Shown in pieces: positions 10,400-49,382 of a DNA stretch of 64,000 nucleotides. The first letter of the stretch is position 1. Every line of letters begins with the position of its first letter. The stretch spans positions 44,042,215-44,106,214 of the forward strand of contig NC_060059.1 in the NCBI RefSeq assembly GCF_020283565.1. The letters are read 5' to 3'. Source of the stretch: Trifolium pratense. Its lineage: Eukaryota; Streptophyta; Magnoliopsida; Fabales; Fabaceae. The position numbers were made by a program, and so were the translations under genes. Below the pieces are notes generated by a model that saw only the letters and a list, made by a program, of their open reading frames with translations, was not told where the DNA came from and did no database searches.

Positions 10400-11034
10400 C
10401 ATTTATAAAAGTCAAGTGAAATCTTCATTTCATATTTTCTTTGAATGTAGCTTTCTTGAAAAACTTCGTCTTGGTTGGCTGGTTATTTAAATTTAGTCCT
10501 TCAATTTTCTTCCATTGAGGATATGGAAGCTTTGTGACTTAAACTGGTATCCTGCAAGACTACCATAACTTCTACCATCACATTAACTTAATCACTACTT
10601 TATGGTTTGTCAGAAATCAAGCTAGAATTAACAATAAGTTGATGCCTTGGGCTTCTGATATTGTAATGACCATAGCTAACACTTCACTTATAGGTAACAA
10701 CACTTGTAAATCATCTTCTAACTCTATAAGAGATTTCAACCTTTTGAAGTTATTCAAAATTAATATTCACCAGCCCAAAGCTACATATCTTAAAGAAGTT
10801 TGTTGGCAACCTCCTCTTGTTGATTGGTTAAAATGCAACATTGATGGATCCTCAAATCGAAACCCTGATGATGCTTCTTGTGGAGGTATTTTTAGGAATC
10901 ACTCTACAAAGTTTGTTTTTGGTTTTGCTGGACCTCTAGGTATTACTAATTATTACTTTATTGAACTTTCTGGAGCAATGAAGGCTTTTGAAACAGCTTC
11001 TCAAAATAATTGGCACAATATTTAGATTAAAACT
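10400..11034 (+). pseudogene. LINE zf-RVT/RNase H region, left part (split by the Sirevirus insertion)
   Basis: Frames encode a decayed zf-RVT end (FHIFFECSFLEKL) and then a clear RNase H region: LWFVRNQARINNKLMPW, WLKCNIDGSSNRNPDDASCGG with the conserved aspartate, and YYFIELSGAMKAFETA. A TAG at 11023-11025 replaces a codon that is usually tryptophan in this family. The frame continues beyond it to the insertion point at 11034 and resumes at 21146 on the other side of the retrotransposon. The element was probably dead before the insertion. Confidence 0.75.
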
Positions 11035-21271: not shown

Positions 21272-22963
21272 TGTTGAGACAAAATCCTATTTTGATGTTT
21301 TAAAGTTAACAACCCTTAATTAAATTTTAATTTGATTATGATCATTTTGTGATCTAACAAGTGCTCTTGAGTGATTTAATTTAAGAACAGATGCAATGGA
21401 TTAAATTAACCTTGTTTCACTCATAAGAAAAGAATCAAACACATTTTAGACAAATCTGCCTCAGAGAATGATCTCAGATTGGTCTCCAGACTCACGTGTT
21501 CAAAAGCATAAGCACTTATTCAAGTCAACTTGGTACAAGACAAGAATGAACTTTTAAGTTGGACTTATTAAAGGATCATAACAGTGCAAATAAGTCATTT
21601 AAGGCAAGGAATTGATTTTGGTTATTGAACTTACTCAAATAAGCTTCTTTAAGGAATAATAATTTCACATCTTGCAACAAGGCTCTATGTTCTCCAAGAA
21701 CATCATTAAAGAAGATAATCTAGACCAATGAGAACTCAACAACAAGTACTAACAGCTTGCAAGGAAACTTCACATCTGATCCAAGTACAAGTTTATGATA
21801 TGGGTGGCTACACTCTCCCATAAAAGAGTACTCATTTCACTATTCATGTGTCCTTTGAAGGACAAGTGAACAGTTGCTACTCTATGCCTTTGATGAAGTG
21901 TTTACAGTTATATTACAACTTGCAACAGCTCTATTTTCGTTGGACCTTATCCACACCATTTCAGAGAATGGTCTCCAACATCCTGGAGAATGATCTTCCA
22001 GGTTTTTGCACTTAGGTGGCAATCTTATCCAAAGGCATTCAAATCTTATTTCCACACATGGGAAATACATTTACAACGGATATACACTCAGAGACAACTC
22101 ATTGACAGTTGGTTAAAGAATATTTCTGACCAACAAGTACAATTTGACAGTCAGTGGCCATTAGAAGAATGATCTCCTGGAGCATCTAAAGGACAAAATC
22201 ACATGGACTGTTTTGTTTCTCTCACAACGGCTATTTCTCCACTCACAACGTATATGTGTGATGTCCAAGCAACAATGGAGCATCTCCATCTATAAATAGC
22301 ACGTTGATTTGGTTGGAAGAGCAACAACTTGAAGCACACAAAACAATCTAATACATTCCATCTCAAGCAATCAAGCTCTTCTTTTCACTCTTACTCTAAA
22401 GCTCTCTAGAAATCTAGGATCATATTTTGTAGAGTACTTTGAGTGTATCAATTTGTAAGCTTCACAACCGGTTAGGTGTATAAGCTTAGATACAAAAGAA
22501 ATCATTGAAAAATCCTTAGGATTCTCTTAAGTCAATTGGGTATAATTGATTGAGGTTACCTTGTAAAGGTAGATCAGCTGGATATAGCTGGATACTTTGT
22601 GATCTTGGTTTTAGGTCACAATGGGTCTTTGATCTGGGCTTAGATCAAAGGGAAGTTTATGTAATCTTGGTCTAGATTATAGTGGATAATCTCACGCAAG
22701 TGGGGACTGGAGTAGCCCATACTATTAAGGGGTGAACCAGGATAAATTCTTTGTGTGATTCTCTCTTCCCTTACTCTTTTATTTGTGCAAACACTAACTC
22801 ACACGAATTACTTTATTGCACGTATATTCGAGGAGAACGTTCTCCAGTTAGTCTAACCATTTACTATCATAGTGTGTTATTATGCTTAAATTGTTTTGCA
22901 GTTGAATTTTTAAAAGGTCACAATTCAAACCCCCCCTTTCTTGTGACAAACATTGTTACTTCA
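21272..22963 (+). repeat. 5' LTR of the plus-strand Sirevirus
   Basis: Starts TGTTGAGACAAAATCC and ends TTGTTACTTCA. It contains TATA-like CTATAAATAG at 22290-22299, a plausible core promoter. The partner is 33215-34904. Confidence 0.95.
22290..22299 (+). promoter_or_regulatory. TATA box of the plus-strand Sirevirus 5' LTR
   Basis: CTATAAATAG about 1.0 kb into the LTR. The same sequence is conserved in the 3' LTR near 34231-34240. Confidence 0.6.
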
Positions 22964-22980
22964 ATTGGCATCAGAGCACT
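22964..22980 (+). other. Primer binding site of the plus-strand Sirevirus
   Basis: ATTGGCATCAGAGCACT directly follows the 5' LTR end and fits a tRNA-Met primer. Confidence 0.9.
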
Positions 22981-23037
22981 GCCTCTAAAAGCTAAGCATC
23001 TAACAAGTGCTTGAGGAAAAGATTCAGGAAGGAAGTA

Positions 23038-24540
23038 ATGTCTAAACCTGCAAAATTCATCTCAGAAGGAGGATCATCAACTAGACCACCTCTTTTTGAA
23101 GGAAATGACTACTACTACTGGAAAGACAAGATGAAATTGTTTCTCAGATCACAGGACATCAACATGTGGACTGTAGTGGAAGTTGGAGACTATACTCCAC
23201 TAGTCAAAGATTCATTCACACCAAAACCACAACTTGAGTGGACAACTCAAGAATCTGACAGGGTACTTCATAACACTAAAGCTAGATTATTTATTAAAAG
23301 TGCTTTGTGAAGGAAAGAATATGACAGGATCATGGAATGCAAGACGGCCAAAGACATGTGGACAACTTTGCAAACACATCATGAAGGAACCAGCCACATA
23401 AAAGAAACAAGAATTGACATAGGAGTAAGAAAGTTTGAACTGTTTGAAATGAATAGCAGTGAAACTATAGATCAAATGTATGGAAGGTTTACAGTTATCA
23501 TAAATGAGCTAAACTCTCTTGGTAAGAAATATACCACACACGAGAGAATAAGAAAGCTACTAAGGTGTCTACCAGAAGAATGGAGACATATAGTAACTGC
23601 AATAACTGTAGCAAAAGATCTTAATTAAGACAATGGATCTGGAAGATTTCATTGGATCTTTAAAAGCTCATGAAGCAATACATCAAGAAAAGAAACCAGC
23701 AAAGAATAAGATGATTGCTCTAGAATCACAAGTAGAAGAGAACTCAAAAAGGGAAATGACTTGTGATGGAGAGAATTCTCTTCAACAAGATGATGAGGAA
23801 GAAATGGCCTTTCTCTCAAGAAGAATTCAAAAGCTAATGATGAGAAGAAATCAAATCAAAAATTCATTTCCACCAAGAAGAAATGAAACTGACTCAAGCC
23901 AAGTAAAGTGTTACGGGTGCAATCAAACTGGACATTACAAAAAAGAATGTCCAAAGCTGAAGCAAAGAAGACCTCCCTACAATAAATCCATGATGGCTAC
24001 ATGGGACGATCTAGAAGAACTACCAGAAGAAGAAGAAGCTAATGTTTGCCTAATGACCAGAACTGACTTAGATGAGGTAAATCTTGAACCTTGCTCATCA
24101 TGCATGAATACTGAACAACTATTTGATAATCTCTTATATGGCTCACAAATTACTGCTCTAAAATATGATCAACTTAAAAATGAACTCACTAAAGCTATCA
24201 TAGAAAAAGATGAGTATAAAACTGAACTCACTAAAATTATTAAAGAAAAAGATGAGTTTGAAATTAAAAATAAAACTTTAGAAGAAACTTTAAAAAGAGT
24301 TCAAAATGATCTAGATGAAGTATCTAAGTCAGAAGAAAATCTTAAGAATAAAATACAAAAAGAAAACTTAGAACTAATACAAAATGTTTCAGTATTAGAA
24401 AAAGCTGTCACAACTTTTGAAAAACTTCCAAATGTTAAAAAGAAATTTTTTGAAATAGATCAAAAACAAACAATGAATGATAAAGTTTTCTTAACTAAAA
24501 AGGACCAAAAAAGAAGACTATTATGTTCCTTCTGTCATTA
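23038..24540 (+). pseudogene. Sirevirus gag, disrupted
   Basis: Begins MSKPAKFISEGGSSTRPPLF (ATG 23038) and shows the capsid motifs DYYYWKDKMKLFLRSQ and KLLRCLPEEWRHIVTAI. A zinc knuckle CYGCNQTGHYKKEC lies near 23911-23952, followed by a long Lys/Glu coiled coil (KNELTKAIIEKDEYKTELTK). Breaks: TGA at 23308-23310, a frame change near 23620, and TAA at 24539-24541 within a second zinc knuckle (CSFCH..YGHIRYFC). It cannot make a full product. Confidence 0.85.
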
Positions 24541-27428
24541 ATATGGACATATAAGATATTTTTGCTTTAAGAAAATATCTAAAAATTCTGTAAGAGATCA
24601 TTCTCCAGATAGTTTACGAAACTGGTTTCAAAAGAATACATACATAAAACCATCTCATAAGAGAATGTCTTTTAAAAACACTAACCATCAAGGACCCAAA
24701 TCTCTATGGTTACCAAAATTCTTACTAAACTCAAATGCAGGAATATTTGCTAGCAGTCAAGAAAAAGCCATGGTACTTGGACAGTGGTTGCTCGAGGCAC
24801 ATGACTAGAGACAGACACAGCTTCCTTTCCCTTGAGGAAAAGGAAGGAGGAACCGTTACCTTTGGTAATAATGAAAAAGCTAGTATCAAAGGTAAAGGTA
24901 TAATAGGTAAAATTAATTCTGCTAAATTAGAAAATGTTCATTATGTAGAGGGTCTAGAACATAACTTAATAAGTATTAGTCAACTGTGTGATAATGGTCT
25001 TGAAGTTATTTTTAAAACTCATACATGTGAAATTAAACAAATATCTTCTGGAAAGACTCTTTTTAATGGATCAAGAAAAAAGAATGTATATGTCATATAT
25101 CTAGATGAACTGCCTGTTGAGTCATGTTTTGTATCTCTTGAAAAAGATAAATGGATTTGGCACAAAAGGGCAGGACATGTAAATATGAGGACAATTGCAA
25201 AACTTTCTCAACTTGATCTAGTAAGAGGATTACCAAAGATAAGTTTTGACAAAGATAAATTATGTGAAAGTTGTACAAAGGGAAAACAAACCAAAAGCAG
25301 TTTTAAACCTAAAGATTTTATTTCAACTAAAAGACCTCTTGAATTACTTCCCATAGATTTGTTTGGACCTGTCAAAACTACTAGTCTAGGTGGTAAAAAC
25401 TATGGTTTTGTTATTGTTGATGACTACTCTAGATACACATGAGTTTTGTTTCTAAAAAGTAAAGATTAATCTTTTAATATCTTTTGTAAAAAGGTTCAAA
25501 ATGAAAAAGGTTCAAATATCATTTCCATAAGAAGTGATCATGGTGGAGAATTTGAAAACTCCTATTTTGAATCATTCTTCAATGAAAATGGTATTTCTCA
25601 CAACTTTTCTTGTCCAAGAACTCCTCAACAAAATGGAGTTGTTGAAAGAAAAAATAGAACCTTTCAAGAAATGGCAAGAACTATGATAGATGAATTCAAT
25701 GTTGAAAAATACTTTTGGGCTAAAGCTATCAACACTGCTTGCTATATCTTGAATAGAATGTTTATAAGAAAAGTTTTAAACAAAACACCTTATGAACTTT
25801 GGAAAGATAAAAAACCAAATATTTCTTATTTTCACATTTTTGGGTGTTATTGTTACATCTTAAATATTAAAGATAATCTAGGAAAATTTGACTCTAAGTC
25901 TGATAAAGGAATTTTCTTAGGATACTCTCTAACCTCTAAAGCATATAGAGTTTATAATCTAACATCAAAATCTTTAGAAGAAAGCATGCATGTAAAATTT
26001 GATGAATTTGATGATATATCGTGTGAAAAAGAAATAGATGATGAAGATGAGCAAAACTCATCAAAAGAACGGGTTATAGAACAGGAATCACCACCACAAG
26101 AACCTCCTAGAACTTGGAAGGTTGTAAGCAATCACCCTTAAGAACAAATAATAGGTGATACTGCAGAAGGTGTAAGAACTAGAAGATCATTTCAAGTTGA
26201 TGAGAACAATCTAGCTATGATCTCTCAAATTGAGCCAAAATCCATAGAAGAAGCAATCACTGATGAATCATGGATCATTGCTATGAAAGAAGAACTTTCA
26301 CAATTTGAGAAGAATGAAGTTTGGAAGCTAGTACCAGATCCTTTAGACCATTCTATCATTGGAACTAGATGGGTCTTCAGAAACAAAATGGATGAAAATG
26401 GTAAGGTAATTCGCAACAAAGCAAGACTTGTTGCTCAAGGTTATAATCAACAAGAAGGTATAGATTATGATGAAACATTTGCACTAGTAGCAAGGTTAGA
26501 AGCAATAAGAATCTTACTTGCATATGCATCTCATAAATGTTTTAAACTTTTTCAAATGGACGTAAAAAGTGCTTTTCTAAATGGATTTTTAAATGAAGAG
26601 GTTTATGTCCATCAACCTCCTGGATTTAAAGATGAACAGAAACCTAATCATGTTTTTAAACTTACTGTAACACCCAAACCCATTATTTAATAAAATTCTA
26701 CCATGATAAATCTTTTTCAAAATACGCGGCGGAAAATCAAAGTTTGTTATTATAAAATCTTGGTTCAGGTATTACATACTTCATAAAAATAATACTAATT
26801 TAATTAATTAGTAAAAATACTTGTTTATACAAATCTTAAATCAAATAATGTATTTATTAACTATACAAAACAACCTAGATAAGGAGACTCTATATACATA
26901 TAAAACCTCTTTTTCCCGTGTCACAATCAGAGCGGAGCTTCACCGACGACTCGACATCGATAAACACATAACCTGTGAAATCTGGTCCCAAACCAGTCAA
27001 ATACACAAAACGGAGAGTTAGATAACATAAACATCAACATACTATTATCATGCATATTCTAACTCACAAATATACATTAATATCTTCTTTCAATAATAGA
27101 TTACAAGATAATTGTAATCAAAACATCATTTACAAACAACAAAGCATCACAAGCATACATTCTCAATCTTAGTTCAATTATAAGATTATTAGGCATCAAC
27201 ACATAGAAGTATCATTTAGAGTTAATAAAACATCTAACACTTCAATCAATTATAGATTACAATATAATTGTAATCAACACATCATCTAGCAAGTATAGAC
27301 AATTCATCACATGTTCCAGATATGTGTCACACACCAATTATCACGTAATTAACACATAATCCTAATACAATCTAATGCCACAACTCATGCTATGTCACCC
27401 TAGACATATCTAATGCATGTGGTACCAT

Positions 27429-27770
27429 CTTCTTTATTAGAGTATCTCACCTCTAATATCCTTCTTTATCGGATAAATATAATCCGATATCCTTCTTTAT
27501 TGGAATATCCAATATCCCTATTATAATTCATGAATGCATGTATGTTTTCATGAATACTCTCACACAATCATTTTTAATTAGCATTAAGCTCTTCCTTTAC
27601 TAATGTGGAACACTATCCAACATTACTTCTTTATTAAGATAACATTATACCTTAATATCCTTCTTTATTATAATAACATAATTCTAATATTCTTCTTTAT
27701 TAGGATTACAATATAATTCCTAATATTCTTCTTTATTAAGTTGATTTACACCTTAATATTCTTCTTTGAT
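27429..27770. repeat. Array of hairpins with a constant CTTCTTT-type linker (LTR A)
   Basis: Seven to eight units of linker plus stem-loop. Clean stems pair 27435-27442 with 27451-27458, 27467-27474 with 27482-27489, 27498-27504 with 27508-27514, 27632-27638 with 27651-27657, 27698-27705 with 27718-27725, and 27734-27740 with 27752-27758. Two imperfect ones pair 27601-27609 with 27616-27625 and 27666-27674 with 27681-27689. Stems all start TAT and end ATA, but their cores differ (TAGAG, CGGAT, TGGA, TAAG, TAGGA). Confidence 0.85.
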
Positions 27771-28029
27771 ATTTAAACAAACATCATCAACAACAATTAT
27801 ATTTCACACATACCATCGATAATTCATCAACACATACAATGCATTTACTCACATTTTAACACAATACTAATAATATAAGTCAATTTTATTAAGCATGCAT
27901 TATCTCACAAAACAAACTCCGGAATCGAAATCTACACGAAAAACCGAGTAAAATAGGTTCCGGGTGCATAAACCGTCAAAATGTCAAAAGTCAACAAAAA
28001 GTCAATGGTCAACGCAGAAAATTGAACGA

Positions 28030-28130
28030 GCTGCGCCATGTGCAGAAAAGCTGCGCCCAGGCGCAGGAACCAGCAGATTTTCTCGAAAATATTGCGCCAG
28101 GCGCAGAAAAGCTGCGCCCAGGCGCAGGGG
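28030..28130. repeat. GC-rich palindromic cassette in LTR A
   Basis: Repeats of CTGCGCCCAGGCGCAG (28051-28066, 28112-28127) and TGCGCCAGGCGCA (28093-28105), each a near-perfect palindrome, sit in otherwise AT-rich LTR sequence. LTR B has a different palindromic cassette at the matching place. Confidence 0.85.
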
Positions 28131-30444
28131 ATCAGTCCAGATCTGTCAAAACGCGATTTTGAGCGTAAAAGCACTTATTTTGACTCAAAATCACTTATTT
28201 CAACTCCATAAAACATACCACAAATAGAATATGTTTATACATGCTCAAAAGCACTTAAAAACAACTTATTAACATCAATAATCACTTATTTCATGGTTTT
28301 TGACACATTTAGATCTAAACTCATAAACTATCAAGTTCTTACAAAAACATCTACAAATTCCCATCCAAAACCCCATTAATTTGTTCATACAACTTGTTAA
28401 TGGTTTATTAAACATGTTATGATCAATGGATTTCATTTTCATTAAGAAAAATCCCACAACCCAAAACGAAAATGAGTGAAAGAGTTTGGGAATGGAGGAA
28501 TCGACATCCTCCCCTCTTTATGACCACTCAAGAATATGTAATCTAACTCTCGTACCTTAGATCCGACGAAATCTCGAGCTTCCTCTTTGAATCTCAAGCT
28601 TTTCCTTGCCCTAGCTCTCCTCCTCTTTGCTCTTCCTTCTCTCTATCTTTCCCAAAACTCATGAAAAATGAGCTCTCTCTCTCTCTAGCAAGCTTATATA
28701 GCGCCCCCTCTTCTTGTGCCAAGGCCCATTGGGCCAAAACCCAATAACTTGGCCCAACTAAAGCTCACGGACACTAACTCTCACAAACGCCATTAACTCG
28801 CTCATTAACTAATACTCTCGATAAATAACTATTCGCCACTGAATTAATTAAAAGTCATCGCAACAATTAATTAAACACTTAAATAGCGAATAATAAAAAT
28901 CGGGTCGTTACACTTACCAAAGCTCTATATGGACTTAAACAAGCACCAAGAGCATGGTATGATAGACTAAGCTCTTTTTTAATTGAAAATGGTTTTTCTA
29001 GAAGAAAAATTGATACAACACTTTTTAGAAAAACAAATGAAAATGATTTATTAATTGTACAAGTATATGTTGATGATATTATATTTGGTGCTACTAATGA
29101 AAAAATGTGCGAGGATTTTTCAAACCTTATGCAAAGTGAATTTGAGATGAGCATGATGGGAGAACTCAGATTCTTTCTTGGCTTGCAAATCAAGCAACAA
29201 GATGATGGAATCTTTATTAGTCAAGAAAAATACATCAAAGATCTTCTCAAAAAGTACAACATAAATGAAGCAAAGATCATGACTACTCCAATGCATCCAT
29301 CAACAAATTTAGACAATGATGAAAATGGTAAAACTGTGTCTGAGAAAGAATATAGAGGAATGATTGGATCACTTCTATACTTAACTGCAAGTAGACCAGA
29401 CATTGTATTCTCAGTTGGTCTTTGTGCAAGATTTCAAACATCTCCAAAAGAATCTCATCTTACAGCAGTCAAAAGGATTTTTAGATATTTGGTGGGAACA
29501 CCAGATGTTGGTCTATGGTACAAAAAGTGATCTCATTTTGACCTAAAAGCCTATTATGATGCTGATTATGCTGGTGACAAACTTGAAAGAAAAAGCACAA
29601 GTGGTGCTTGTCAATTTCTTGGTGAAGCTCTTGTAAGTTGGTGCTGTAGAAAGCAAAACACCATAGCACTTTCAACAACTGAAGCAGAATATGTATCAGC
29701 TGCAAATTGTTGTCACAAGTGATATGGATCAAAAACCAACTTGAAGATTTTTCTCTAAGGCACACATACATTAAAATTCTTTGTGATAATACTAGTGCCA
29801 TTAATTTATCAAAGAATCCCATTCAGCATTCTAGATCTAAACATATTGAAATTAAACATCATTTCATTCGTGATCATGTTTGCAAAAAGGATGTTGAATT
29901 AATATTTATTGACACTGAATCTCAATTAGCTGATATTTTTACAAAACCTCTAGTTGAAGATCGCTTTAATTTTATTAAAGAAAATTTAAAAATTATAAAA
30001 AATCCCAGCTAAGCATTGTTGGACAAAATCTCACACTTGAAGAATGTCAGGAGAACATTCTTTCCCTTAACAAAAAAAGGAAGAACATTTCTTAAAAAGG
30101 ATGATATAAATTTTATCCGAATTTCCTATTTTTTTAAAAAACAATTTTAAAACTTTTAAACCTTTTACTCTTCCTAGGTCATCTGTCTCTCTCTCTCTCG
30201 CCTTAACTCCTTCTCTCTCTCTTTTAGTTTTCCTAAGTACAAATTGCAACTATTCATAATTGTACTAAACCTATACCTAATCTATCAAACCATCATTTCC
30301 TATTCTCCATACACTCTATCATCATTATTTTATTTAACCAACACAAACTCAACACATTCTCATAATCACTTTCGAAAATCCTATTTTCCCACTGTTCATC
30401 AACTTGTCATTATCCTTTCATCTCCAAACCATTACAAAAAAAAA

Positions 30445-32708
30445 ATGGCCAGAATTAAGAAACCTGGAAACAAGAACAAGAGAGACTGTTCTTCGTCATC
30501 CTCTCAATCACCAAAACGCTCACCCTCTCCTCCACCTGCTCCTTCTCCTAAACAAAAATCTGATACCAACTCTTCTTCAAACACATCTTTTAAATCTCTC
30601 TCGGACCATGAGAATGAGATGGAAGTTCAATCTTGTCCCTTACCTCAAAATGTTGCTGAAAACTCTAGTATGATAGAACCATCTCCAAACAAAATTACTG
30701 TATCCACTGAAATTTTGATTGGATCTATCCCTATTTCTTATGAAACCACCAAAAATATTCAACCAGTTCAATGCTCCCAAACAGTTATTGAAACTCAAAC
30801 CCTTCTTCAAAAGGAAACTGCTACTCCCTAACCCAAAGTCAAAACTGTCAAAACTGCTTCAACTCCTTCCAAAACTAAAAAATCAAAATCACTTGATTTT
30901 TCGAAAGTTAGAAAGTCAAGTAGATTAGCCTCAGGATCTAAACCAGCAATAGACAAAACTGTGTATTCCATTTCTGATGATGACTCAGAAAAAACAAAAT
31001 CAGATTCTCCAAAAGCCAAATCCATTCCTGAAATCAAAACTTATTCGAAAAGATCTTCATCATCCAAATCTCACACCAAACCCTCAAAGTCAGAATCCTC
31101 TGAAGAAGATATCATGATACGAAAGCTAAAAAGGTCTGCTCCCCTCATTCATGAGGGTTGCGAACAAAGTTTTGAAATCTTTGCCAAGAAAAAACCAATT
31201 CTTCCAGGCAGAGTATACAACTTTGACGACCTTGCAACACAGACCATGATCTTACCCAGTTCACCAATCCTCTTGGTTGGACTTCTTTGTTTAACATTAG
31301 AGAAACACATTACCCAAACCTTATCTCAGCATTTTACTTCAATGTTGTTATCCCCTCTGACAGAAACTCCATAGTCTCTGAACTTAAGAAAGTTAAGATC
31401 AAGATAACTGAAGAATTGCTTGGAAAGCTGTTGGACATACCAACCACGGGTCACAAACTATATGGAGAAATTTGGTTCTCCATGGCAGGAGTAAGTAAGA
31501 ATACTCTTATGTCTGAGATTTTTGAACCTGGAACCAACCTCACAAAAAATCCACCCTCATCCAAGCTCAAACATGTTTTCAAGATGTTGCACAACATGTG
31601 CTTGCATTCCATCTTCCCAAGAAAAGGAAGCAAGGATAAGGTCACAGAAAATGACATGATGATGATGATGTATCACATGTTCAATAAGATCCCACTTAAT
31701 CTACCATATGTCATGATTCAACACATGATATACACCATTGAGAATGAATCTAGGAAAGTCACTCTCCCTTATGGTATGTTTTTGACTAGAGTGTTCAACA
31801 AACTCAAAGTCAGTTTTGAATGAGAAGAAGGAAAGAATTCGTCTACCACATTCTCTCTAAAGAATGTTGGAAGGATGCAATTTATTGGAGATATTGAGGA
31901 TCATACCACTTGTGATCAAGGCCAGAAAAGAAAAAGAGAGGAATTTGAAAAGGATAACAATCTGGACCTCTTGGCTGAAGTTATGACCACACAGGAAGAC
32001 CATCCAAAGACCGTTCTCCCAGTCTCAGCTCCTAGTGAAAAAGCCAAAGAAGTTGTAAGTGAGAAAACCACCTCTGCTCAATTTAACCCTTTCGTTTCCT
32101 TAGAGTTTGATAATTTAAGAAATGATTTTGGAAATCCTGAAAATCAACACACCACTGTCTTGAATGATGGTTTTTCCACCATTAACAATCCTGTTAACAC
32201 ATCCATTTTCTCACCATTAATGACCTCACCACAAACTTTTTTTGATACAACAGATTTTTTGAAAAACTTCCTATCAACTCCTTCTGATTATTCAAAAATA
32301 CATCAACCCATTTACACTGATGCTGGTCCATCCACATCATTTCCTCAGAATTTTGCTTCCATGAGTTCATTTTGCACTAGCTATCCAACCAATGACTCTG
32401 CTGCGTACCAAAACTCTGCAAACATTCCTCCTTTTGACACAAGACCCACCAAAAATTCAAAAGTTGAGCAAGATGTTTCAAAGACCAGAAAGGATATGGT
32501 CAAAATGTTTGAAGCCGTCAAGATTAACAACACTTTGTTGAGCTATGTTGTCCAGAAGCACCAACTCTTTAGAACCTGGCTCATAGAAGAATTTTGCCCT
32601 GTTATGCGTGTTACTCCACCTCCAACCAATCCTCCTCCACAAGTTCCAAACCTTCCAAAACTTGACAAGGATTCAAGCTCTGATGACTCTCCACCAGCTG
32701 ATTCTTAG
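30445..32708 (+). pseudogene. Sirevirus ORF3 (env-like / plant transposon protein), disrupted
   Basis: ATG at 30445 (MARIKKPGNKNKRDC), 432 bp after the pol stop. A Ser/Lys/Pro-rich N-terminus is followed by the conserved region (ISAFYFNVVIPSDRNSIVSE, KITEELLGKLLDIPTTG, LHSIFPRKGSKDKVTENDMM) and a Pro/Ser-rich C-terminus (VTPPPTNPPPQVPNLPKLDK). It is the counterpart of ORF3 in the neighbouring Sirevirus but diverged. Breaks: TAA near 30829, a frame change near 31245, TGA at 31821-31823. Unlike the other copy it is separated from pol and has no leaky-stop context. Confidence 0.75.
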
Positions 32709-33214
32709 TAGCTCCTTATGATGCCTCCCACCTCCTTTTTTGCTGTTGACAAAAGGGGGAGAATGAATTCTGTAGAAATTAGGGGGAGATTGTGATGTTT
32801 TTAAAATTCGTTTGATTATGTGTGTTTTAAAATATTTCTGCTTTATGTATGTTTTAGAATTTGTAGATATAGTTGGAAGTTGTGTTGGTTTCAACTTCTA
32901 ATTGTATGTTGTTTGAATTCTAAAAACTTAGATTATGTTTTGAATCACTTTTTGAATCATTAATCATGTTTTGGTAATTGTCACATGCTCTTGAATGAAG
33001 TTCTGATTAATGGGTATTATGTTTGATTCAAATTTATGTCTTTACATATTTTTACTCAATTTGCATTTGCATATTTTATAAATTGATAAAGAATGTTAAA
33101 ATTGAGGGGGAGCTTTATATGATTAAATCACAAGTATTATTACTAAATATGGTTTAATCAGAATCACAATCAAAAATTAATTAGAGGTTTTGTCATCATC
33201 AAAAAGGGGGAGAT
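32709..33214 (+). other. 3' non-coding region with four polypurine tracts
   Basis: AAAAGGGGGAGA (about 32750-32762), AGGGGGAGAT (32781-32790), GAGGGGGAGC (33104-33113) and AAAAAGGGGGAGAT (33201-33214). The last abuts the LTR. This is the multiple-PPT layout known from Sireviruses. Confidence 0.8.
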
Positions 33215-34904
33215 TGTTGAGACAAAATCCTATTTTGATGTTTTAAAGATAACAACCCTTAATTAAATTTTAATTTGATTCTGATCATTTTGTGATCTAA
33301 CAAGTGCTCTTGAGTGATTTAATTTAAGAACAGATGCAATGAATTAAATTAACCTTGTTTCACTCATAAGAAAAGAATCAAACACGTTTTAGACAAATCT
33401 GCCTCAGAGAATGATCTCAGATTGGTCTCCAGACTCACGTGTTCAAAAGCATAAGCACTTATTCAAGTCAACTTGGTACAAGACAAGAATGAACTTTTAT
33501 GCTGGACTTATTAAAGGATCATAACAGTGCAAATAAGTCATTTAAGGCAAGAAATTGATTTAGGTTATTGAACTTACTCAAATAAGCTTCTTTAAGGAAT
33601 AATAATTTCACATCTTGCAACAAGGCTCTATGTTCTCCAAGAACATCATTAAAGAAGATAATCTAGACCAATGAGAACTCAACAACAAGTACTAACAGCT
33701 TGCAAGGAAACTTCACATCTGATCCAAGTACAAGTTTATGACATGGGTGGCTACACTCTCCCATAAAAAAGTACTCATTTCACTATTCATGTGTCCTTTG
33801 AAGGACAAGTGAACAGTTGCTACTCTATGCCTTTGATGAAGTGTTTACAGTTGTATTACAACTTGCAACAGCTCTATTTTCGTTGGACCTTATCCACACC
33901 ATTTCAGAGAATGGTCTCCAACATCCTGGAGAATGATCTCTCAGGTTTTTGCACTTAGGTGGCAATCTTATCCAAAGGCATTAAATCTTATTTCCACACA
34001 TGGGAAATACATTTACAACGGATATACACTCAGAGACAACTCATTGACAGTTGGTTAAAGAATATTTTTGACCAACAAGTACAATGTGACAGTCAGAGAC
34101 CATTAGAAGAATGATCTCCTGAAGCATCTAAAGGACAAAATCACATGGACTGTTTTGTTTCTCTCACAACGGCTATTTCTCCACTCACAACGTATATGTG
34201 TGATGTCCAAGCAACAAAGGAGCATCTCCATCTATAAATAGCACGTTGATTTGGTTGGAAGAGCAAGAACTTGAAGCACACAAAACAATCTAATACATTC
34301 CATCTCAAGCAATCAAGCTCTTCTTTTCACTCTTACTCTAAATCTCTCTAGAAATCTAGGATCATATTTTGTAGAGTACTTTGAGTGTATCAATTTGTAA
34401 GCTTCACAACCGGTTAGGTGTATAAGCTTAGATCCAAAAGAAATCATTGAAAAATCCTTTGGATTCTCTTAAGTCAATTGAGTATAATTGATTAAGGTTA
34501 CCTTGTAAAGGTAGATCAGCTGGATATAGCTGGATACTTTGTGATCTTGGTTTTAGGTCACAAAGGGTCTTTGATCTGGGCTTAGATCAAAAGGAAGTTT
34601 CTGTAATCTTGGTCTAGATTATAGTGGATAATCTCACGCAAGTGGGTACTGGAGTAGCCCATACTATTAAGGGGTGAACCAGGATAAATTCTTTGTGTGA
34701 TTCTATCTTCCCTTACTCTTTTATTTGTGCAAACACTAACTCACACGAATTACTTTATTGCACGTATATTCGAGGAGAACGTTCTCCAGTTAGTCTAACC
34801 ATTTACTATCATAGTGTGTTATTGTGCTTAAATTGTTTTGCAGTTGAATTTTTAAAAGATCACAATTCAAACACCCCTTTCTTGTGACAAAAATTGTTAC
34901 TTCA
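33215..34904 (+). repeat. 3' LTR of the plus-strand Sirevirus
   Basis: 1690 bp, partner of 21272-22963, followed by AGGTA at 34905-34909. Confidence 0.95.
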
Positions 34905-38233: not shown

Positions 38234-41200
38234 GTAACATTATTATCAAACTTTATGTAAATTAACATCATAACAAAAAATTTCATACTACTAAAATATG
38301 GTGATTTCATTCTTTCTAATGTTTGATTTATTTTAGACCGAAATAGCTTATATCACCAATAATGTGCTTAGTTATTAAGCAAATTTGTATCTTTTACACA
38401 AGGCACAGTTTCTTATTGCTAATTGAATTTATTTTTGGACAATTTCATTACTATTTAATGAACTCTGATGTTTTTTTTTTGCATCCACTAATTTATTTTG
38501 AATATGATACCATTTAATAAGACTAATTGCAATTTGATTTCTCATACTAATTTTCTCAAGTTATAATTATAGGTTAAATGGGATGAACCAGATTTACTGC
38601 AAAATGTGAGAAGGGTAAGTCCATGGTTAGTTGAATTGGTTGCAAACATTCCTTCCATAAACCTTTCCCCTTTCTCGCAACCAAGGAAGAAATTGAGATT
38701 GTCGCCGCACCAAGATTTCCCCTTTGACAGCCAAATTCCGGTGCCGACGTTTCCAAATAACCTTCTAGGTCCGAGTAACGTATTTCGTTGTCTACCCGAA
38801 AATACTCCTGCTGGCATGCAGGGAGCCAGGCATGCTCATTATGGTCTTCCAATATCGGATCACCACCTCAGTAAAGTTCAGTCAGGTCTATTTTCGGCCG
38901 GTTTCGTGCCTTTTGATCATGCTACTAAACTACCTACTGTCTCTAATAACCTAATGATGCAAAAATCTAGCATGAGTGAGAATGTGTCTTGCTTATTATC
39001 TATGGCAAGTTCTACTCAGTCTTCGCAGAAATTCGATGACAAAAAACCTCAGCTTGTTCTTTTCGGCCAAAAAATTCTCACTGAGCAACAGATCTCTGGT
39101 GTGTTAGATAATAATATTATTAGGGCTTTAAGTATTGGGCTTTATATGTTAGTAGTTTAGTAGTCCATTAGGAATTATTATAAATTGTATTGTAATCCTT
39201 ATTTTGTTAAGTAATGCTATTATAATATTATTGAAACCCTAGCCGTCACTTTGTGTTTCTCTCTGAACTTTAACATGGTATCTAGAGCAAGGTTCGATCC
39301 GCCTTGAACCACCTGTTGGTTTCCGCTGTCGAGTTCTCAAAAATTTGGGAACGAAATTGTGAATTGAGTTTGTGGAATTTTGAGTTAAGGTTAGTTATCT
39401 AAATTAGTTTGATTTGATTTTGTGGATTTCTTCTTTGATGGTTAGTTTATTGAAAAAGAAAAAAAAACTTCTGAATTGCGGACATAGTGAGATTGATTTT
39501 GTGATTTTGTATCTACCGCTGCCACTCGTACGGGGTCTGTCTTTTGAATTGTTAGTGAGCAAGGTGGGATCTGATTTCTTGGTTTTGCTTGCTACTTTGC
39601 AATTGAATTGTGAAGAAAATTAAAAAAAATTGTATTTGTGGTTTTGTTCGGTTGAAGAGTTTTACTCTAAAAGAATTGAAGCAGCTTGTTGGGAGTCTTT
39701 TATAGTGTTTCTGCGGGTCTATTGGTTTGAAGTATTGTGCCGATGTTGTGCTATGTTATTTTTGGTTTATAGCTGCTCGTCTGTTAATTTTCGGGTTACA
39801 GATGCATGTTGGTGGTGTGGCCTTGGAACATTTGCTTCAGTTTGGGGCATTTGATTGATGCTGATTAAGTTGTATCTTGTTGGTGGCAACATGTTGATTG
39901 CATGTCAAGCTGTTTGAGAAATTTTTTGTGTGATTTGGTTTCGTTCGGTTGTGGGGGCAGTTTCATGTTTATTTGGTGAGTGAAAGCTCGCAATCTGTCT
40001 GTCTGGTGAGGGAATACTCACATTGAATCCGGTGAGGGAATACTCACAATTTGAAATTTGAATCCGGTGAGGGAATACTCACATTGAATCCGGTGAGGGA
40101 ATACTCACATTGAATCCGGTGAGGGAATACTCACATTGAATCCGGTGAGGGAATACTCACATTGAATCCGGTGAGGGAATACTCACATTGAATCCGGTGA
40201 GGGAATACTCACAATTTGAAATTTGAATCCGGTGAGGGAATACTCACATTGAATCCGGTGAGGGAATACTCACAATTTGAAATTTGAATCCGGTGAGGGA
40301 ATACTCACATTGAATCCGGTGAGGGAATACTCACATTGAATCCGGTGAGGAATACTCACATTGAATCCGGTGAGGGAATACTCACATTGAATCCGGTGAG
40401 GGAATACTCACAATTCGAAGTCTGAAATCTGAAGAAGTTGAATTTGAAGCTATTAGTTAATTTAGTTTATTTTCGGGTTGATTTGTAACAAGCTCAAAGC
40501 TTAGTAAGCTTTAGCTTGAGGGAGGGGTAGTATTAGAAATAAAATATTTAGTTAGAGTAGTTTGATTTTCGTTTTTTGTTTGACAAACTCTCGATGATTA
40601 TCTGATAATGCATCGTGAGTTTGAGGGGAAGTGTTAGATAATAATATTATTAGGGCTTTAAGTATTGGGCTTTATATGTTAGTAGTTTAGTAGTCCATTA
40701 GGAATTATTATAAATTGTATTGTAATCCTTATTTTGTTAAGTAATGCTATTATAATATTATTGAAACCCTAGCCGTCTTTCTCTTTTCCTATTTGTTTCT
40801 CTCTGAACTTTAACATGGTGTTCGTTCATCAGATGGAAATGCCGATAAAATGAGTAACTTCTCCGATGGTTCGCGAACTCCTCTTCATCAACAAGGCTTA
40901 CAGAAACACCCCTCTTGTGACAGTTTCCCAAGGTATAAGGATAACAACCAAGAAACTGAGACGAGTTTGGAGAGTACTACTGATCACTGCAAAGTTTTTC
41001 TCGAATCGGAAGATGTTGGTCGGACAATTGACCTCTCTTTACTTGAGTCTTATGATGAACTGTACAGAAAGCTGGCAGAGATGTTTGGCATAGATAAATA
41101 TGAGAAGGTAAGTCGCGTGCTCTACCGGGATATATCAGGAGCAGTCAAAAACATTGGAGATGAACCATTCAGGTAAGAATCACAATCAAACCCTCTTGAA

Positions 41201-42217: not shown

Positions 42218-43039
42218 AACTAAAAGGGATCCGGATTGACTGTTGTAGCAGGTGCACGCAGTAGTCAATCTAGATCATTGATTTATGATCAAGTTGTTAA
42301 GTTTTTTTTTTTGAAGAATTTGTTGTTTATAACACCCCGAACTAACTATCCTTAAAAACGTGATCTTAAAAACTTTTTAAAGATAAGTAGCCGGAGCGCT
42401 ACGGAAAAACATTTTCAAAAACGATCGTGCACATGACACGAAACGTCGCAGCGGAAAACATAACATAAAGGATTTTCAAAGCAATGAACAAAATAGTTCA
42501 AAAGATAATTCATTAACATAAAACATAAGTTAAGATGTTCGCATCGATATACGACGGAATACAAACGATCCCCGACTCGATGTTACAAACTACCAGAGCA
42601 CTAATATACATCTCAACCAAACTAAACTTAACAAAACTATACAAAGGTAGCCTACACTAGCTCCTCACCAAAAGTGCTCCACACCAAAACGATCTGCAGC
42701 TAAAACTCGATCGAAACCTCGACCTGAATACCTGAACCCCCAAAGGTCCAGCACATAACAATTAGGTAGAGAGTTAGTAAACATAATCACATACATACGA
42801 ATATAGAAACGCACCTATATTCAACCTATCACGTATACTAACTCACACACATGCCTCAATAAGTAATATACCAGATAACACATACTCACAAATACACAAC
42901 CGGATAGTTTCACGTCGTTTCGGACAACACAAAGAACTCACATAACACATAACACATAATTGCACATTTACTCAAATACGACTAATGCCAAACATTCAAT
43001 TCATGCCAACCTAGACACGACTAATGCATGTGGTACCAT

Positions 43040-43300
43040 CTTCTTTATCAAGGAACTTACCATTGATATTCTTCTTTATTGGACAAGTCCAATATCCTTC
43101 TTTATCAGACAAGTCTGATATCCCTAAGTAATGCATGAATTTATGAATGTCATGCATTTACCAAACATATGATAATCACTTAGCACGAAGCTACTGCTCA
43201 CTACATGGATAACATAATCCATTAAACTTCTTTATCAGACAAACTGATATTCTTCTTTATCGGACAACCCGATATACAAAAATACATATACTTCTTTGAC
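43040..43300. repeat. Array of hairpins with a constant CTTCTTT-type linker (LTR B)
   Basis: Stems pair 43077-43084 with 43087-43094, 43103-43110 with 43113-43120, 43233-43238 with 43244-43249 and 43258-43263 with 43269-43274. A bulged one lies at 43046-43053/43060-43068 and a short one around 43205-43221. Cores (TGGAC, CAGAC, CAG, CGG) differ from those in LTR A, while the linkers are the same. Confidence 0.85.
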
Positions 43301-43419
43301 ATTTTATATAAATGCCATTACACAACACAATTATTAAACATATAATAATTCCAAACCAAAACGAAACCAAATACATGGATACACACACTTTACAAACATT
43401 AACAAAAATTGCTGTCACA

Positions 43420-43545
43420 GAGCTGTTCGCTAAGCGAAGCCGTAGCGAACCCGTAGCGAACAACATCAGAGGGTTACAGGTACATGGCGAACAGGTAGCG
43501 AACTTGTAGCGAACTTATTCGCTAAGCGAACAGGTAGCGAACCAC
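43420..43545. repeat. Palindromic TTCGCTAAGCGAA / TAGCGAAC cassette in LTR B
   Basis: Two copies of TTCGCTAAGCGAA (43426-43438, 43518-43530) and about six TAGCGAAC or GGCGAAC units lie in AT-rich surroundings. Position in the LTR corresponds to the CTGCGCCCAGGCGCAG cassette of LTR A. Confidence 0.85.
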
Positions 43546-44453
43546 ACCAGAAAATATTTGTTCTTGAGTTTTCTAAGGCGGTTTAACATCCAAATCCATC
43601 CAAAATACATTATAACATGTTATAAATGCATAACAAGTGATCAATCATGTATATACCATACATATATACATGTATTAACATTCAAAAACACCAAAACACA
43701 TCACACATACAAAATCATGTCAATTTCTTGCAAAATAAGCAAAGTTGCATAAACATGCAAAACCATCATCAAACATATACATATTCCCTCCTAGATGTTC
43801 ATTAAGCATACTAAGATGAAAGGACATGTTTATGATAAAGAAAACTTCACCCAAACCCCAAAGAAATTGGATGAGAGAGTTCAGGAATGGAGGCTAGACA
43901 CCTCCCCTCTCTTGGATCACCCAAGCTTATGCTTAACCACTCTCACCTTAGATTGAACGATGATTCTTGGCCTCTAAATCTCTTCTCCTTGCTCGTGTTC
44001 TTCTAGCCAAAACCCTAGCTTAGCTTGTTCTTGCTCCTAAGCTTACAACTTCTAACTTCTCATGAAAAATGAATTGTGAGACTATTCATGGTTTTGACTT
44101 GCTACTTATACCACTCTCTATTGGTCATGAACCAAGCCCAATAGCCTAAGCCCATTAAGCTCTCACACGCCCCAAGCCCATTAACACGACAAAGGTTTCG
44201 CTCACAAACTTATGTTCGCGATAAATAATTATAGGTCGCGTAAATAAATATTTAACACTAACCCAAAATATATGCAAATATATAAAATATCGATTTACTA
44301 AAAATCGGGTCGTTACATTGTTCAGATTTATGCAACATAAATTTAATAATTTATTATAATATTTGATCTTAGCCCTTTAAAATTTGATCGGACGGCCAAA
44401 ACCAGTTACTGCGTGCATGCGGTAGCTGCATTAAATCCAACTCCCAACTAAAA

Positions 44454-46027: not shown

Positions 46028-46048
46028 TATTGAATAACTAATATATAT

Positions 46049-46825
46049 GGTGGCGTCTAAGGTGAGGGCTCTATCAAGTCCCTCACCGGTGAGGCATTTA
46101 AAAAATACCGTTAGATTTAATGAATGGTTTAGATTTATTAGAAATAAAATTGAGAACACTTGTCTCTTCTCACACACGATCTTTGTCTCACATCTCCCAC
46201 TATCAGTTCTGCAATTTCTCACCCCCCCCCCCCACTCCCACCCCGTCATTTCCATCTTCTCTTCTCTGCTACTGCTAATTTCCCACTCTCTACCTTTTCC
46301 ATCTTCTTCATTATTTATCTCTACACATTAAATTCCTTTTTTTGTGTCACCACAAATTAAAAAGGGTTTGATGGGTCTTCCTAATTTATAGCAAAATTTG
46401 TAATGGGGCCTTTTGATCAAAGAGGACAACGATAACAACAATGTTGTCATAGTAAGAACAATCGAAATTGAGGTCTTTAGCCTTGTGTTGCTGTTATGAC
46501 TAGAACTTTATGGTAGTGACACATGTGTTTGTTCTTGAAGTTTCATTGACAAAAGTTGGACGAGTAATGAAAATGGGAGTTTCTAGCCGTGTAATAGGAA
46601 AGGAGAAAGGTTACGGTGTAATAAAAATGGAGGAAATTTTGTCAAAAGAGAAAGAATAAAAAAAAAGTGTAAAAATGGAAGAAACGAGGACAAAATTGTG
46701 TGTGAAAATATGTACATGTTCTTATTATTATTTCAAGAAATCTGAACCATCCATTAAATCCAACGGTATTTTTTAAATGCCTCACCGGTGAGGGACTTGA
46801 TAGAGCCCTCACCTTAGACGCCACC
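46049..46825. mobile_element. Mutator-like non-autonomous element, 777 bp
   Basis: Terminal inverted repeats start GGTGGCGTCTAAGGTGAGGG and match for at least 80 bp (with CTCACCGGTGAGG inside). A 9-bp AATATATAT lies at 46040-46048 and 46826-46834. The interior holds a C-run (46222-46233) and CT-rich DNA but no transposase. Confidence 0.85.
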
Positions 46826-46834
46826 AATATATAT

Positions 46835-48842: not shown

Positions 48843-49382
48843 TGTTAGAATTAATTTACTAATTCATCGTATAAAACATGCTCAACAATAAAGATTAAAT
48901 CCATAATCTTACTTTAGTGCGGAAGCCAAATAAACATATGAACATGTATATAAAACAGGATCTACGACATGTTGATTTATCAAGGATTATATGAACTGAC
49001 CTGAAACAGAATCGGATGACGAACACCCGTTGGCTTGTGGTTCTTCCTCAACCAGGACTCCTTATGCCTTTAGGACTCTTCAGATGGGGAGAAGAGTCAA
49101 TATGCAGTGTGTCCGGTATATTGGGGACCATAGCCTATATATAGTGTGATGACCAATTAGGGTTCCCATTATTCCGAAATGGGCCATCCTGACATCCACT
49201 CATATTGAGCCCATATCCAATTAATTAATGACTTAATTAATTCTAAATAGAAATCTAATTAGCCTTTTAACTTTATTTGATCACTTAATCAATTAAGGCT
49301 CCTAATTGATAAATAGCTAATATAATTATATAAAGATATTTGCCCACATAATATTATTGGAATATTGTAAAATATTCCAACA
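48843..49382 (-). repeat. 3' LTR of the decayed copia-derived element
   Basis: 540 bp, pairs with 54616-55155. Begins TGTTAGAATTAATTTAC and ends ATATTCCAACA on the plus strand. Confidence 0.95.

Follow-up and report, generated by a model that had tools for sequence, protein, structure and literature searches.

A hairpin array with retained pairing and purine-rich linkers in LTR elements of red clover, a candidate packaging or dimerization RNA

Two solo LTRs carry related hairpin arrays

The window, which is the whole 64,000-nucleotide stretch of red clover DNA analysed here, contains two solo LTRs that share an array of hairpins. LTR A is inserted into a Copia reading frame, and its ends (TGTAACACCC...GGGTCGTTACA) and CTTAC target duplication support the solo LTR status that the initial annotation had given it. 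The minus orientation, previously proposed from a TATA-like box, agrees with a TATA box on the minus strand and with relatives that have a primer-binding-like site and a polypurine tract: several of these run past the minus-sense end into TGGTATCAGAGC, which resembles a primer-binding site (PBS), and a polypurine tract precedes one. Because the array lies ~0.9 to 1.3 kb downstream of the TATA box, it would be located in R/U5 RNA, where it had been placed before, if the LTR is transcribed. Its distance from the LTR end and the PBS is ~700 nucleotides. By its sequence, LTR A appears to be akin to the Ty3-type family B described below. The features of LTR A are as follows, in LTR sense.

26666..28912, minus strand: solo LTR A, 2247 bp, defined by its termini and the target-site duplication CTTAC
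28695..28700, minus strand: putative TATA box of LTR A (TATATA), LTR-sense position 213
27768..27785, minus strand: hairpin h0, GATGTTT/AAATATC with one G.U pair, then the first linker
27734..27758, minus strand: hairpin h1, stem TATTAAG/CTTAATA
27698..27725, minus strand: hairpin h2, stem TATTAGGA/TCCTAATA
27666..27689, minus strand: hairpin h3, TATTAGAAT/ATTATAATA, one G.A mismatch in the window copy
27632..27657, minus strand: hairpin h4, stem TATTAAGGTA/TATCTTAATA, one G.U pair in sense
27602..27624, minus strand: hairpin h5, AATGT..ACATT with inner GGA..TCC, not of the TAT..ATA form
27526..27555, minus strand: hairpin h7, stem ATTCATGAA/TTCATGAAT, not of the TAT..ATA form
27498..27514, minus strand: hairpin h8, stem TATTGGA/TCCAATA
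27467..27489, minus strand: hairpin h9, stem TATCGGAT/ATCCGATA
27435..27458, minus strand: hairpin h10, stem TATTAGAG/CTCTAATA, loop gtgagata
27410..27428, minus strand: anchor 3' of the array, sense ATGGTACCACATGCATTAG, containing the self-complementary TGGTACCA and ATGCAT

Read in LTR sense, the array alternates hairpins with the linker AAAGAAG(A/G)A, which joins seven TAT...ATA stems, and terminates in ATAAAGAAG-ATGGTACCACATGCATTAG. With the anchor and the last hairpin counted, the region 27410-27785 contains ten hairpins. The initial annotation had thus positioned its "at least six" stem-loops and their linkers correctly, although they number about ten, and its description of every stem as TAT...ATA fits seven hairpins but not the other three (27526-27555, 27602-27624 and 27768-27785). 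The position of the G.A mismatch in h3 is paired in 27 of 32 aligned relatives. An 18-nt core of the anchor, TGGTACCACATGCATTAG, is exact in 51 of 63 A, A', B and C loci, some of which overlap.

LTR B represents a related family and has the same array layout with different stem sequences. Its features are listed from the anchor upward.

42328..44317, minus strand: solo LTR B, 1990 bp, target-site duplication TTGTT
43021..43039, minus strand: LTR B anchor, with the same sequence as the LTR A anchor
43046..43068, minus strand: hairpin homologous to h10, TATCAA(t)GG..CC/TTGATA
43077..43094, minus strand: hairpin homologous to h9, TATTGGAC/GTCCAATA
43103..43120, minus strand: hairpin homologous to h8, TATCAGAC/GTCTGATA
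43130..43158, minus strand: hairpin homologous to h7, AATGCATGA/TCATGCATT
43205..43222, minus strand: hairpin at the place of h5, ATGGAT/ATCCAT
43233..43249, minus strand: hairpin TATCAG/CTGATA
43258..43274, minus strand: hairpin TATCGGG/TCCGATA
43298..43316, minus strand: hairpin homologous to h0, GGCATTT/AAATGTC

The two LTRs can hardly be aligned overall (median identity 45% per 100 columns), and the block of array and anchor is their most conserved stretch, reaching 76% in the best 100-column window and 73% over 222 columns by BLASTN. The second-best conserved block lies just past the TATA region (28403-28562 and 43797-43953), and holds a hairpin-like GGGGAGG..CCTCC and a shared donor-like AAGGT(A/G).

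Other repeats were observed in the window. The Copia frame that LTR A interrupts is flanked by repeat pairs that are 98% alike at a spacing of 11.94 kb (21272-34282), repeats at 11034 and 20129 are 99% alike, and 300-nt copies at 48843 and 54616 are identical; these pairs suggest further young LTR elements. At 39976-40488 a 26-bp unit is repeated in tandem, with some steps of 35 bp. Two large inverted repeats, at 1254-2447 and 46048-46826 (195-nt arms 93% alike and 103-nt arms 91% alike), are presumably MITE-like or foldback elements.

Hairpin density, predicted folding and pattern scans

Nowhere else in the 64 kb are perfect hairpins as densely clustered as in the LTR A array, which has 7 in 350 nucleotides when stems of at least 7 bp and loops of 3 to 14 nucleotides are scanned with simple sequence filtered out. 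Its sense strand is predicted to fold at -72.8 kcal/mol, as compared with -52.1 kcal/mol for dinucleotide-shuffled sequences (z -4.7), and none of 100 shuffles folded as well. The antisense strand is more extreme than the sense strand relative to its own shuffles (z -6.6). For the LTR B array in sense, z is -3.3 and 1 of 200 shuffles was as good; in the minimum-energy fold of the whole B array the hairpins are paired over long range and not locally.

A two-linker pattern has 8 matches in the window, and no match in any of 100 shuffles. Elsewhere it matches 13 stretches in viral contigs and at least 119 in genome contigs. Among 136 bacterial and viral matches examined, the two best pair at 7 and 6 end positions in a row and the rest at no more than 5, whereas LTRs A and B have 12 TAT..ATA units with 5 to 10 contiguous pairs each. 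Since such chance matches pair little, the linkers do not themselves create the pairing. Array-like pairing outside red clover was absent among the matches listed, beyond the one with 7 paired positions, and the exact anchor had no match in viral contigs. Rfam models gave no match in the window at gathering score or in LTR A at E <= 1, and a peptide encoded by the antisense frame had no homologue in our searches.

Pairing is retained while stem sequences change

In the TAT..ATA units of the two LTRs, 12 in all, stem positions 4 to 7 pair with their own opposite arm in 45 of 48 cases, and the best of 200,000 permutations of the 3' arms reached 43 of 48. We also compared families in a five-row MAFFT alignment that represents family B by one row, family C by one (locus L212) and A-like arrays by three, and counted the 23 pairs of h8 to h10. 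Hairpins h0 to h7 were left out because h7 of family C is poorly aligned by MAFFT or because the unit is present in some families only, and L213, which represents family D, was left out of the covariation counts. Seven of the 23 pairs have changed on both sides, a number that none of 500 shuffles attained (mean 2.1) and of which slid partners gave at most 1. Pairing is retained in 97.3% of 113 cells, as opposed to 36 to 52% with slid partners. Double-change pairs, double-change cells and the covariation score are all above the controls; further pair types are not in excess (9, with a shuffle mean of 9.6). Together with the 45 of 48 own-arm pairs, the seven double changes support the view, held from the outset, that pairing is kept while sequence is not.

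Within family A we aligned 32 of 36 distinct arrays, leaving out four partial ones. Here 97.4% of 2523 cells are paired, compared with 37 to 52% for slid partners, and covariation is weak: there are only 3 double-change pairs, a number reached by 426 of 500 shuffles, and the number of pair types was reached by 477 of 500. Fifteen double-change cells and the covariation score nevertheless exceed all shuffles (means 7.0 and 0.025). The covariation test that the initial annotation had proposed, run here with shuffled and slid controls, is therefore positive between families and weak within family A, and a family of recent copies such as A cannot say much more about covariation.

A list of homologous stems whose arms were chosen and trimmed by hand to their paired part, and which thus has zero broken pairs by construction, contains 12 double changes and 6 one-sided changes with G.U pairs. 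All six non-Watson-Crick pairs in this list are G.U in sense and none is A.C. G.U pairs persist among A copies, being present in 32 of 32 for helix 6 and in 25 of 27 for helix 1. One pair of helix 10 is, however, unpaired in 14 of 32 A copies, where it is A.C in 13 (TATCAGAT/ATCCGATA) and A.A in 1, in sense. This variant is at a CpG, and deamination after insertion is its likely cause, although its one-sided excess and recurrence suggest that it may also be copied by replication. The helix 10 A.C variant weakens the use of G.U-only wobble as proof of a sense RNA. Units inside one array resemble one another in self-matches, and duplication or conversion of units may therefore explain some of the double changes.

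A second cluster of palindromes, which are GC-rich, is situated upstream of the array in LTR sense (window 28030-28130; L212:62-138; L213:37-131). The palindromes are GGCGCAG/CTGCGCC in family A, TTTCCGCC/GGCGGAAA in C and TCGCTGAG/CTCAGCGA in D; in family B there is none at the threshold used, and TTCGCT/AGCGAA is visible. This cluster may be a second case in which structure is kept and sequence changed.

Copies in the red clover genome

In the red clover genome (413,558,439 bp), the best 40 of 1525 candidates for the LTR A array are 88 to 100% identical to the query, and the best 40 of 1058 candidates for the LTR B array are all 99 to 100% identical. Exact two-linker units occur 1109 times genome-wide (526 + 583), and a reversed control yields 0. 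Among the matches listed, all of which are on contig C1, there are 17 distinct units, of which 13 are paired at 8 of 8 end positions and 4 at 6 to 7.

On C1, C-type units (TATCGAAC..GTTTGATA) are found in same-strand pairs that are 5.2 to 5.8 kb apart (for example 10546488/10552190 and 19143326/19148821), so family C, too, would seem to consist of elements of this length. Three equally spaced arrays are present at C5:18883908-18895962 (5861 bp) and again at C2:67238341-67249729 (5694 bp), and look like tandem LTR-internal-LTR-internal-LTR arrangements of A-like elements. An LTR-derived tandem repeat with a 909-bp period (C7:17850124-17852275; L159-L162) includes the whole hairpin array. In the family D locus (L213, C5:17887700-17888900), the anchor has diverged to TTGGTATCACATGCATTTAG and the AAAGAAG linkers are lost, and the hairpins are kept; its predicted fold is more stable than those of its shuffles (z -2.9, with 0 of 200 as good). 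This form of the array is possibly ancestral or degenerate.

Elements that carry the array

Family B arrays recur at a spacing of 3.1 to 3.2 kb (among the best 40 of 1058 candidates), and delimit elements with a primer-binding-like site, the tract AAGGGGGGTAGAGT and a single Gag frame. In L211 this frame of 315 amino acids lies between the PBS-like site and the start of the LTR, matches PF03732 (Retrotrans_gag, E 2.5e-16) and PF19259 (Ty3_capsid, E 2.3e-07), and has three CCHC knuckles. All nine B loci on the PBS side match it at 97 to 100%, and eight of them are open over the 244 to 251 amino acids compared, the frame in L182 being broken. In these elements an LTR of 2 kb exceeds the internal part of ~1.1 kb in length. 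On the basis of these matches, family B elements appear to be of the TR-GAG type and to belong to the Ty3 superfamily; for family A, membership of this superfamily is suggested solely by the shared LTR blocks. A presumed autonomous B element at L204-L207 was rejected: L175 and L176 are two solo LTRs with the same flanks, and the domain matches in L204-L207 are consequently uninformative on family B.

Arrays that are 88 to 90% like that of LTR A occur at a spacing of 5.5 to 5.9 kb (among the best 40 of 1525 candidates), and all three internal stretches beside such arrays lack a sense frame longer than 84 amino acids. Likewise, the 9 kb beside a 95% A copy (L147; L171) contain no frame above 121 amino acids on either strand. 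Another copy, 98% identical to A (L136), has a sense gag-protease frame (L169) 5 kb further on, so family A may have coding members. This frame may belong to the A copy or to a nested element, and was not used for classification. No autonomous partner for the array-bearing elements was found among the loci examined. The array is thus retained in elements without pol (the gag-only B elements) or without visible genes (the three A-like stretches). Because it is kept beside stretches without genes, the array most likely has its role in the RNA or DNA itself and not in the translation of the element's own genes, and most likely acts in cis.

Possible functions of the array

We consider that the array is probably a selected, cis-acting RNA structure. 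In the predicted folds, its linkers are unpaired with probabilities of 0.73 to 0.86, as compared with 0.43 to 0.48 for other purines. When the hairpin segments of LTR A are shuffled and the linkers are held fixed, linker openness drops from 0.85 to 0.75, and none of 60 controls is as high; the same control in LTR B gives a drop from 0.752 to 0.67 that is not significant (control maximum 0.799). This drop makes the stems look like clips that expose the purine linkers. By prediction, then, the array presents exposed purines beside a palindrome, namely the open linkers and TGGTACCA in the anchor.

These features suggest a possible mechanism. The short, AU-rich stems would be interchangeable clips in which it is mainly pairing that counts, and if so, their sequences could drift through double changes. 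The stems would hold the repeated, purine-rich AAAGAAG(A/G)A linkers single-stranded beside an anchor with the self-complementary UGGUACCA. The repeated purine linkers might be binding sites for Gag, which in the gag-only B elements has three zinc knuckles, and two RNAs might pair with the help of the palindrome or the self-complementary hairpins. Elements without pol, some of them without any visible gene, could in this way be carried by the proteins of others.

Two known systems resemble parts of this proposal. In MPMV, packaging is described as relying redundantly on two purine-rich stretches that lie next to a palindromic stem loop, and substituting the single-stranded purines alone is reported in the same account to have no significant effect (PMC7674771). 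BARE2 is a plant element without its own Gag, and the available account of its conserved dimerization and packaging signals finds them to fit packaging in trans (PMC3735527). The MPMV plan of open purines and a palindrome, together with trans packaging of BARE2, leads us to favor packaging or dimerization, which the initial annotation had listed among several roles and which by analogy appears to be the best of them. We estimate a probability of roughly 0.45 that the array is a cis-acting structured R/U5 RNA of Ty3-type LTR elements that most likely functions in packaging or dimerization. The structure of the array is well supported; its role we infer, as we do transcription through the array, Gag binding, packaging and dimerization.

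Other functions at the RNA level could account for some of the same features. The array might direct 3'-end formation as a row of polyadenylation near-upstream elements that are held open by stems and mark the end of R. Each stem end with its linker reads (A/G)AUAAAG, and the hexamer abuts the closing pair, which would couple structure and signal; moreover, some retroviruses (HTLV/BLV) have a structured R region. Although AATAAA is present at six of the seven TAT..ATA stem/linker junctions of LTR A, with GATAAA at one, LTR B has AATAAA at only one of five junctions and GATAAA at four, and polyadenylation explains neither the conservation of AAAGAAG(A/G)A beyond the hexamer nor the 3' anchor. 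We therefore regard this function as unlikely. An involvement in splicing, nuclear export or translation control, with the GAAGAA-like purine linkers acting as exonic enhancers or leader motifs, seems improbable as well. LTRs A and B contain 71 and 66 sense ATGs, so B Gag needs a way round them, and the loop of h10 is donor-like (GGTGAG in A and GGTAAG in B), and among GT sites scored by a simple donor matrix its GT is the best in B and the third best in A; in the D-type locus L213, too, a hairpin loop ahead of the anchor contains GGTAAG. However, this GT is lost (GGAAAG) in three B copies counted (L183 and others), for which reason we downgraded the idea that the last loop holds a splice donor; in family C the sequence is GGTGAA. 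Translation control, also among the roles suggested initially, is disfavored by the retention of the array beside the three A-like internal stretches, none of which has a long sense frame; these stretches contrast with the gag-protease frame near L136. A 12-codon frame after the array (MVPHALDMSRVT / MVPHALVVSRLA) is kept in A and B, but it was dropped as a candidate since it runs on in family C. The earlier suggestion of a small-RNA precursor draws on the presence of hairpins in the fold, yet Dicer-like enzymes use far longer stems, with precursors of miRNAs and other small RNAs having stems of ~20 bp or more. Since the TAT..ATA stems have only 5 to 10 contiguous pairs, and given the lack of an Rfam match, such a precursor is very improbable.

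The array could also have no selected RNA function, if its palindromes are made or mended at the DNA level (by arm-to-arm repair, template switching or unit duplication) or serve as a cruciform or DNA-binding platform. Palindromes are by-products of template switching, the units within an array are alike, the array has been caught in the 909-bp-period tandem repeat, and the fold of the antisense strand is no less striking than that of the sense strand (z -6.6). Arm-to-arm correction, which had been offered as an explanation at the outset, is nonetheless disfavored because G.U pairs persist in the stems, for example in all 32 A copies at helix 6, as well as in 25 of 27 at helix 1. That the six non-Watson-Crick pairs of the hand-trimmed stems are all G.U also argues against an origin at the DNA level, although the A.C variant of helix 10 points the other way. 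In addition, a mutational process leaves unexplained why the linkers and anchor are conserved in LTRs that have otherwise diverged. An array without a selected RNA function is thus an unlikely explanation.

Relation to known systems

If the array does function in packaging or dimerization, its modular build would let parasite elements be carried in trans. The array also points to selection on RNA shape in LTR regions that are usually regarded as drifting freely. A covarying modular array whose unit is present 1109 times in one genome is a concrete candidate for structure probing and in vitro binding experiments. Our literature search found no account of such a hairpin array in an LTR, which is weak evidence of absence. 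We rate the array as a cis-acting retroelement RNA, which is a known kind, in a new modular build. More tentatively, it might represent a new architectural class of packaging or dimerization RNA, in which modular, sequence-free stems would serve solely to present a repeated purine ligand next to a palindrome. LTR elements of a single plant genome would share this RNA, the gag-only and gene-less ones and perhaps also some that code.

The A-like elements, with their array spacing of 5.5 to 5.9 kb and the lack of a long sense frame in three stretches, resemble large non-coding LTR elements (LARDs), in which we know of no hairpin array. BARE1 and BARE2 of barley are Copia-type elements. As may hold for some of the clover elements, they include a parasite without its own Gag and signals for trans packaging; no drifting-hairpin array is described for BARE2 in the available part of its account (PMC3735527). 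TR-GAG elements, whose transposition is reported in Arabidopsis (PMC8704663), have two LTRs and a single Gag frame, as does family B. Family B differs from them, as far as PMC8704663 describes them, by its hairpin array and by an LTR that is longer than the internal part. The packaging signals reported for MPMV and MMTV share with the clover array, as predicted, single-stranded purines next to hairpins and a palindrome in an RNA leader. We claim no homology between these signals and the clover array, which differs from them in having 6 to 8 purine linkers that alternate with drifting stems within a long plant R/U5.
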